49,105 nucleotides of DNA from an uncultured Dehalococcoidia bacterium (GTDB lineage: Bacteria; Chloroflexota; Dehalococcoidia; Lucifugimonadales; Lucifugimonadaceae). A program made the translations under genes and the position numbers. The notes under the pieces are model-generated. The model saw nothing but the letters and a program-made list of their open reading frames with translations, did no database searches and had not been told where the DNA came from. The stretch covers positions 1 through 49,105 of the forward strand of contig CAJWWK010000011.1 of assembly GCA_913048295.1 (NCBI GenBank), given 5' to 3'. This document shows positions 26,107 to 27,615 of the stretch, piece after piece; the first letter of the stretch is position 1, and every line of letters begins with the position of its first letter.

Positions 26107-27615
26107 TTAAAGCCCCTTTAATTCGAGCGTCGAAACTTCCCCAGAATTCGTGTTGATCACCCTGATGAGGTGATTATTGGTATCGGCAACGAATATGCGG
26201 TTTCCAACGATTGCAAGACCGGCCGGTTCGTTGAACTCCGCTTCGTCCACTGTCCCGTCGGCGCTGCCCTGTGTACCCGAGCCGGCGACGGTCTTGACCT
26301 GCTGCGACCCGATGGCGATCGATTTAATCTTCTTGTTGTAGGAGTCGGCAATATAGATCGTATCGTCCTGGACGACCAGTCCCTGCGGGTGCTGTAACAG
26401 GGCGTCTTTGCCGACCCCGTTGTGGTCCCCGAAATCGAACAGACCAGTGCCAATGAAAGTTACCACCCTGCCCTTTTCTGCCAGGGCTGCGACCCTAACA
26501 GAGCTGGTTTCGCTGTCGATGAAGAATACGGCGTTGTTCGATACTTCGACACCGTACGGTTGTGCGAGTCTCGCCTCCGGCTTTAGTCCATCGACGATAT
26601 CTTCGCCGCCATCGCCAGCGAAGGGTGCAACCATCATACTGTCGATATCCATCGACCAGAGTTGATGGAAACCTGCCATGGCTATGTAGAGGGTCCCCGC
26701 GTGGAGCGAGAGATCGTATGGGGAGTTGAGCGGCACTATCAGTGCAGCGCCGCCCTGGTGTCGGTACAGCGACTGCTCACCGGTACCGGCAATTGTGGTT
26801 GCAAGGCGTTTCGTCAGATCGACCCTGACGATGGTGTGGGTACCGGCATCGGCTACATACAGGACATCGCCATCGCAGACAGTCCCCTGGGGGTTGTCGA
26901 AGAGGGGTTGCCCGTACATGCGATCGGAAAACACGCCACGGCTGTCATCTTCAACAAGCGGAGATTTGCCGTTGCCGATAACGGTTTCAACGTTGCCTTC
27001 GAGGTCGGTGAGGATGAGTCGACAGTGATTTGAGTCCGAGACGACCAGCCGGTTACTGGAGGCATCGGCCGTTATTTTTCCGGGGTACGAAAGTGGCTGT
27101 TCTCCGATTGGTTCTGGCGACGTCTCAAACGCGCCCCTTTTGAAGAGTCCTGTCGGTTCGTACTCTGCGATCATTTCATCGAGCGCACCGGCCAGTGCTC
27201 CAACATCAAATTCACCTTCATGGCGGCCGATTACCTTGCCTGAGGGGCCAATAAATATGAGAGTGGGCCAAGCCCGGACTGCGTACGACTTCCATATCGC
27301 GAAATCTGCGTCGTTCACAACAGGATGGCCGATCCCGTAGCGCCTTACGGCCTCGCGCACATTTTCTGTCGACTTTTCGCTGTTGAACTTGGCCGAATGC
27401 ACTCCGACCACCGTCAGGACATCGGCGTACTTTTTCTCCAGCTTCCGCAACTGCGGAAGTACGTGCATGCAGTTAATTCAGCAGTAGGTCCAGAAGTGGA
27501 GGATTACGAGTCGGCCTTCGAGATCGGACATGCTGACCGGCGCGACGGCGTTGATCCACTCGAGTTTTTCGGGGAACCGTGGAGCGTGGATCGTTCCTAC
27601 GTATCGTTTCGCCAA
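26107..27615 (-). CDS. Thioredoxin-domain/NHL-repeat selenoprotein (NHLRC2-like), in-frame UGA read as selenocysteine
   Basis: The frame is open from TTG 27615 to the stop at 26107 except for one TGA at complement(27478-27480). If this is read as selenocysteine, the product has 502 residues. Residues 1-45 give KRYVGTIHAPRFPEKLEW and ILHFWTYC, then Sec46 and [10 protein letters not shown]. This is the NHLRC2 thioredoxin active site (C-C-I-N-C in cysteine homologues) with Sec at the second position, making a U-x-x-C redox pair. The rest of the thioredoxin fold reaches about residue 150 (AWPTLIFIGPSGKVIGRHEG). Residues 175-500 hold at least five NHL blades (LYVADAGTHTIVRV, IYIADSYNKKIKSI, IFVADTNNHLIRVI). 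Starting at the internal Met (27468) would delete the active site. A SECIS-like hairpin lies at 27442-27459. The gene is 44 nt after the PHP gene. Confidence 0.88.
27442..27459 (-). promoter_or_regulatory. Bacterial SECIS-like hairpin for UGA recoding
   Basis: On the minus strand CTTCCGC-AGTT-GCGGAAG forms a perfect 7-bp stem with a 4-nt loop inside the coding region. The stem begins 18 nt, and the loop 25 nt, downstream of the UGA at 27480-27478. The second loop base is G. This fits the general bacterial SECIS description: loop 16-37 nt from the UGA, stem of at least 4 bp, G among the first two loop bases. Confidence 0.82.

Follow-up and report, generated by a model that had tools for sequence, protein, structure and literature searches.

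The gene studied here occupies positions 26107 to 27615 on the minus strand of the window, the whole 49,105 nt stretch of DNA that was analysed. It comprises 502 codons and a TAA stop codon (26107-26109), begins with a TTG start codon (27613-27615) and encodes a putative selenoprotein composed of a thioredoxin-like domain and an NHL β-propeller (Pfam matches NHL, Thioredoxin_8 and AhpC-TSA). When TGA is translated as U, the minus strand contains exactly one in-frame TGA between 27660 and the TAA ending at 26107. This codon (27478-27480) specifies a putative selenocysteine (Sec) as residue 46, counted from the TTG start, at the first position of a CxxC motif in the context FWTYC-U-INC. The codon of the candidate resolving cysteine of U-I-N-C, Cys49, follows at 27469-27471. 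The initial annotation had described a single TGA in an otherwise open 503-codon frame at C-U-I-N-C, and this is what was found (502 codons plus stop). Both the frame and the TGA that it located are real; the strand, which it had not given, is minus, since a plus-strand reading of 26107-27615 encounters several stops. Its statement that a conventional start would remove the active site holds as well: under translation table 11, the sole frame listed (453 aa, 26107-27468) begins 3' of the TGA. A start codon 43 to 51 codons ahead of the Sec codon is available in all 67 Sec loci checked.

Both adjacent genes are encoded on the minus strand, too. The upstream gene (27660-28589) encodes a PHP-domain-like protein that scores below the Pfam gathering score; it adjoins the Sec gene in genus-level relatives and is located farther off in genome G099. 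The downstream gene (23912-25975) encodes a DUF255/Thioredox_DsbH protein with a CHWC motif, which we take to be SPATA20/YyaL-like and which is a possible functional neighbour. In the window's family code, all eight wide loci have a DUF255 gene no more than 2 kb from the Sec gene (1.7 kb in L223), compared to none of the 12 wide loci of other family codes. DUF255 genes were also found near L022, L125, L136 and, weakly, L037, all outside the window's family code. For bacterial members of the protein family, the available text of an earlier study reports no conserved neighbours in seven genomes (PMC6107167).

A further 98 Chloroflexota genomes have TGA at this codon, down to approximately 42% protein identity. 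Together with the own genome, this yields 99 Sec rows from 99 genomes (the window copy, the isolate locus L017 and sets of 24, 41 and 32 relatives), which span 24 family codes of Chloroflexota as counted by eye. Alignment with cysteine-containing homologues had been proposed in the initial annotation as a check. In every relative read, the site is either Sec (TGA, 99 rows) or Cys (TGC or TGT, 91 rows) and never Trp, and close relatives with a disrupted frame and neither Cys nor Sec, which would have spoken against the annotation, did not appear among these rows. Where the end of the gene is visible, the next stop follows the Sec codon after 431-532 codons; in the first 63 rows with a visible end, the distance is 431-470 residues throughout. 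One Sec group among the 32 later loci (L238 and L261-L269) is longer, with 494-501 residues from Sec to end in nine members and 532 in one.

Among the named-genome relatives, the best 80 of 435 loci comprise 79 Cys forms (53 TGC, 26 TGT), which are homologous over the length at 43-49% protein identity, and one TGA form (L017) from Chloroflexi isolate B50T3L14 with 80% identity. As this cross-phyla scan is confined to these 80 loci and one of its six patterns was biased towards Cys, Sec forms may exist elsewhere; the whole-genome samples were drawn from Chloroflexota only. A match at 1e-40 was obtained in 96 of 393 genomes of the window's class and in 87 of 400 genomes of a Chloroflexota phylum sample, ten genomes being common to both. 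All rows flagged as TGA in these two lists indeed carry TGA at that codon. Among the unflagged rows, the site was read in the 12 having loci, four of which are genomes of named loci, and is Cys in all of them. Since the source genome is a draft assembly of 2.43 Mb in 110 contigs (89% complete), the TGA might be suspected to be a sequencing error or to mark a decaying pseudogene. This explanation is refuted by the relatives, as the same TGA recurs ahead of long open frames in 99 genomes from 24 family codes, and by the covariation of the hairpin described below; its probability is practically nil.

A SECIS-like hairpin, CUUCCGC-AGUU-GCGGAAG, is located at 27442-27459 on the minus strand, its stem starting at base 22 when the U of UGA is taken as base 1. 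Of the 434 stem cells in 67 Sec rows (62 of them distinct over 51 nt), 98.6% are paired. Double-sided changes were found in 19 cells and affect four of the seven pairs, compared to 2.5 (sd 1.4) in shuffled alignments, none of 500 being as high. Sliding of the partner strand by one to three columns lowers pairing to 33-71%. By contrast, 42.9% of the cells pair in the Cys control (67 distinct rows; 72 of the 91 given) versus 40.3% upon shuffling, with 8 of 500 shuffles as high. The shuffles ignore relatedness, which is allowed for in part by the sliding and Cys controls. When distinct 60-mers are considered, 442 of 448 cells are paired in 64 Sec rows versus 254 of 602 in 86 Cys rows, and all seven pairs are formed in 58 of the 64 Sec rows but in none of the 86 Cys rows. 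After addition of the 32 later loci, 612 of 637 cells are paired, 25 are unpaired in the fixed register, and 78 of the 91 distinct Sec rows form all seven pairs. Their loop is AGUU in 86 cases, CGUU in four and GGUU in one. The four CGUU rows (L244, L250, L257 and L260) have a slipped register with a 3-nt loop, GUU, and keep both GUUG and the TTG codon. All 91 distinct Sec rows use TTG for this Leu of the hairpin, compared with 11 of 84 Leu rows of Cys forms.

The 22-nt hairpin alone has a folding energy of -11.5 kcal/mol (z -4.26). For 48 nt from the UGA, z is only -0.96 with a competing minimum-energy structure, and longer stretches fold differently, too. Because folding of the single 48-nt sequence is not significant, reliance is placed on the covariation. 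The mean folding energy of a 27-nt stretch is -11.5 in the 99 Sec rows versus -3.9 in the 91 Cys rows, with overlapping extremes. According to a figure legend, bacterial SECIS elements have a conserved guanosine in the apical loop (PMC2398784). The Sec rows contain such a candidate, just 3' of the UGA and with a G in its apical loop.

A search for selA, selB, selC and selD had been recommended as well, and a lack of selB and selC had been named as an argument against a selenoprotein. Both are present in the own genome. In profile searches, selA (508 bits, cut-off 268), selB (323 bits, cut-off 242) and selD (362 bits, cut-off 125) exceed the curated cut-offs. The tRNA-Sec gene is located at the start of contig C36, where its first bases are missing, and has the anticodon UCA by reading. 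It obtained 50.8 bits (gathering score 47) in one search and 45.3 bits, under that score, in another, and over 93 nt it is identical to the full-length tRNA-SeC(tca) from G190, a genome of the same genus. The own SelD (L105, G000:C10:15984-16913) carries an in-frame TGA, too, in the context SCAG-U-AGK. The best RF01852 match in the own genome (window positions 15186-15276) was rejected as selC: It is a tRNA-Ser(GCT), located at 15183-15275 on the minus strand, which with 54.3 bits lies over the gathering score when RF01852 is searched alone. Genes for tRNA-Ser that score as RF01852 were also seen in three relatives (L202-L204) and are a trap for automatic selC calls. The RF00031 search gave no match anywhere, controls included, and is hence uninformative.

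Beyond the own genome, selB is over the cut-off in all 40 Sec-form genomes tested (out of 97 besides the own one) versus 33 of 40 Cys-form genomes, whose Cys site was read in 11 of the 40 and otherwise deduced from a stop-free frame. The seven Cys-form genomes without selB over the cut-off are G157, G118, G152, G060, G129, G184 and G141, five of which represent one genus. A tRNA-Sec was found in 14 of 14 genomes tested, holders of Sec and Cys forms alike, and the best match of each is a tRNA-SeC(tca) by ARAGORN. Encoding of Sec by UAG was considered for the TAG rows G695, G705 and G710 and dismissed, as the site is Cys there and the tRNA is tRNA-SeC(tca).

These data bear on two other ways of reading the UGA. 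The codon might be translated as Trp or Cys due to a changed code or a suppressor tRNA. TGA terminates 4 of 17 other frames of the window and, among the 63 Sec genes whose end is visible, 26; therefore, the code is not simply reassigned. Relatives with Cys instead of Trp at the site, the presence of the Sec machinery and a hairpin specific to the TGA forms make this interpretation very improbable. Alternatively, the UGA of a genuine selenoprotein might double as a selenium switch, with a 45-residue peptide made without selenium and the downstream frame silent. So early a UGA would couple output to selenium, and no Cys back-up copy was seen, the own genome containing one match at E<=1e-40 (3 of 14 first-look candidates scored), but nothing specific points to regulation, and such a dual role is considered improbable.

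The thioredoxin-like domain comprises residues 34-128 (27232-27516, minus strand; the Pfam Thioredoxin_8 stretch). Residues 116-117, W-P, correspond in position to the cis-Pro of the thioredoxin fold and are invariant in the alignment. The domain is followed by the NHL β-propeller with six blades of four strands each (residues 178 to 497, 26125-27084, minus strand), which is based on Pfam NHL (2.7e-23), the predicted model and Foldseek. This order of domains is that of the NHLRC2/SOQ1 family, and the CC(I/V)NC motif of the family is present as C-U-(I/V)-N-C, where Sec replaces the second Cys; the first Cys is Ala or Gly in 17 of 63 Sec rows. A C-terminal β-domain is absent, as judged by the frame end after the propeller and the predicted model. 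This was not treated as defining because the available text of PMC6107167 calls that domain non-conserved. The solved proteins nearest by sequence are SOQ1 (5.5e-113) and NHLRC2 (6.6e-93). The predicted model, calculated from 34 aligned rows with C substituted for U, has a mean pLDDT of 93.7 and a pTM of 0.91. In Foldseek, it matches SOQ1 (7djk, TM 0.93, 40% identity) and NHLRC2 (6gc1, TM 0.92, 36% identity) over the whole length. The NHLRC2-like assignment made in the initial annotation is backed by both sequence and predicted fold, and its overall reading, a selenoprotein form of the NHLRC2/SOQ1 family, is supported. Inspection of the N-terminus by eye revealed no signal peptide, so the protein is probably cytosolic.

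In the predicted model, residue 46 directly precedes helix 47-62, the place expected for a thioredoxin nucleophile. The active-site alignment comprises 63 Sec rows, after four partial rows had been dropped, and 91 Cys rows. Only Sec and Cys occur at position 46, and Cys49 is invariant (63 of 63 and 91 of 91 rows). The vicinal Cys45 is conserved in 91 of 91 Cys rows; in the Sec rows, Cys is found 46 times, Ala 16 times and Gly once. The 16 Ala rows are all from family code f35, and a further Gly is found in L243. L140-L158 represent a Sec lineage with A-U-I-N-C, from which the vicinal cysteine is gone. An invariant Cys49 beside a variable Cys45 in the Sec forms argues for U-x-x-C as the likely working pair, and a Sec46-Cys49 selenenylsulfide is plausible from this pattern of conservation.

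Peroxiredoxins have the peroxidatic motif PxxxTxx(C/U). The Sec rows lack Pro at -7, where Leu, Ile, Phe or Met is found in 63 of 63, and have Thr at -3 from Sec in 63 of 63. The latter resembles the T-x-x-U peroxiredoxin motif given in the available text of a recent review (PMC13188914) and, along with the AhpC-TSA match (1.1e-10), would fit a peroxidase-like enzyme instead of a disulfide oxidoreductase. Against such an activity speak the invariant resolving cysteine of U-x-x-C, Thioredoxin_8 as the best Pfam match for the thioredoxin fold, and SOQ1 and NHLRC2 as nearest folds. A peroxidase is, therefore, an unlikely alternative that retains some weight, and a Sec-x-x-Cys thiol/disulfide oxidoreductase which binds its partner at the propeller cleft is most likely. 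It would have the same architecture as its Cys relatives with a stronger nucleophile.

Taken together, we conclude with a probability of about 0.88 that the gene product is a selenoprotein belonging to the NHLRC2/SOQ1 family, made by SelB-dependent decoding via the hairpin and likely acting through a Sec46/Cys49 oxidoreductase cycle. Covariation and the presence of SelA, SelB, SelD and tRNA-Sec suggest that SelB brings Sec-tRNA(UCA) to the UGA under the guidance of the hairpin, which starts 21 nt past the first base of this codon and exposes AGUU in its loop. In the product, the thioredoxin-like domain is predicted to dock on the six-bladed NHL propeller. Where the first long helix begins, Sec46 would occupy the position of the attacking cysteine, and Cys49 would be its resolving partner. 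The selenolate may attack an oxidised thiol of a partner bound in the interdomain cleft, and Cys49 may resolve the intermediate via a selenenylsulfide that would be re-reduced by a thiol system. The adjoining DUF255 thioredoxin-fold protein might, as a guess, share the pathway in this lineage. For SOQ1, the available texts report that DTT does not reverse the modification of its target LCNP (PMC10173003, PMC6107167), and the reaction may therefore be something other than the simple reduction of a disulfide.

A quick tree of 153 of the 158 rows (five partial or near-duplicate rows were dropped) has seven Sec/Cys changes, and a careful tree of 60 chosen rows has six, at least four of which are forced on well-supported branches. 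Both trees are without an inferred root and do not fix the direction, i.e. gain versus loss of Sec. The Sec form of G657 and the Cys form of G532 are sisters with full support. The Sec forms L173 and L179 share their family code with three Cys genes (L174, L178 and L182) in which the CAGUUG core is retained along with six of the seven stem pairs, and this hairpin looks like a SECIS remnant after a change from Sec to Cys. As a counterpoint, the Cys genes L021, L025, L135, L137 and L175 reach six pairs with another loop. A wider proposal holds that a phylum-wide, uncatalogued Sec form was lost to Cys several times, that CCINC is catalytic with its second Cys (human Cys90) as the nucleophile and that the neighbouring Cys becomes free to change once Sec is present; we regard it as slightly better than an even bet.

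The family appears to be missing from the newest catalogue consulted, a review of May 2026 whose table lists 119 prokaryotic selenoprotein families/subfamilies (PMC13188914). This table names no NHL, NHLRC2 or SOQ1 protein, and NHL and SOQ1 do not occur in the main text of the review. Likewise, a word search for NHL yielded nothing in the main texts of PMC12013277, PMC9312934, PMC2398784, PMC9402790 and PMC5029168. By title or abstract start, no Sec form of NHLRC2/SOQ1 is described in the literature searched, a scope outside which supplements, subscription papers and NCBI protein records lie. The more than 44,000 groundwater MAGs of Deng et al., named in the available text of PMC13188914, could hold a Sec NHL form, and members of the family could be concealed under a broad label like 'redoxin family protein UxxC'. 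In NCBIfam, the protein matches nine families, none above the cut-off.

With this family, the list of prokaryotic selenoproteins would gain a member seen in 24 Chloroflexota family codes. A natural Sec form indicates which CCINC cysteine likely reacts and argues that the family is redox-active, and the bacterial Sec proteins are material for testing NHLRC2/SOQ1 chemistry. NHLRC2 is essential in mammals, and FINCA disease is associated with mutations of it; in 2018, the available text of PMC6107167 described the function of NHLRC2 as unknown.

Among known systems, UxxC selenoproteins with a thioredoxin fold (Trx, redoxin family, SaoT, HUIPC motif) share UxxC and the thioredoxin-like domain, but the available text of PMC13188914 names no NHL propeller for them and does not list a C-U-I-N-C site. 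The bacterial Cys forms, for example from Brocadia, Armatimonadota, Acidobacteriota and SAR202, are homologous over the length. They differ by TGC or TGT at the site, the lack of such a hairpin and, in 62 of 90 cases, at least 560 residues from site to end. Human NHLRC2 (6gc1) has the same thioredoxin-like domain and six-bladed NHL propeller with CCINC in the interdomain cleft (available text of PMC6107167), but contains Cys instead of Sec and an additional C-terminal domain. The lumenal Trx-NHL domains of SOQ1 from Arabidopsis (7djk, 7djj) have a similar fold over the whole length, and the C-C-I-N-C of SOQ1 aligns with C-U-I-N-C. According to the available texts, SOQ1 differs in having Cys, a HAD domain and a transmembrane helix (PMC6107167) as well as a C-terminal domain (PMC10173003), whereas the protein encoded in the window has Sec and consists only of the thioredoxin-like domain and the propeller.
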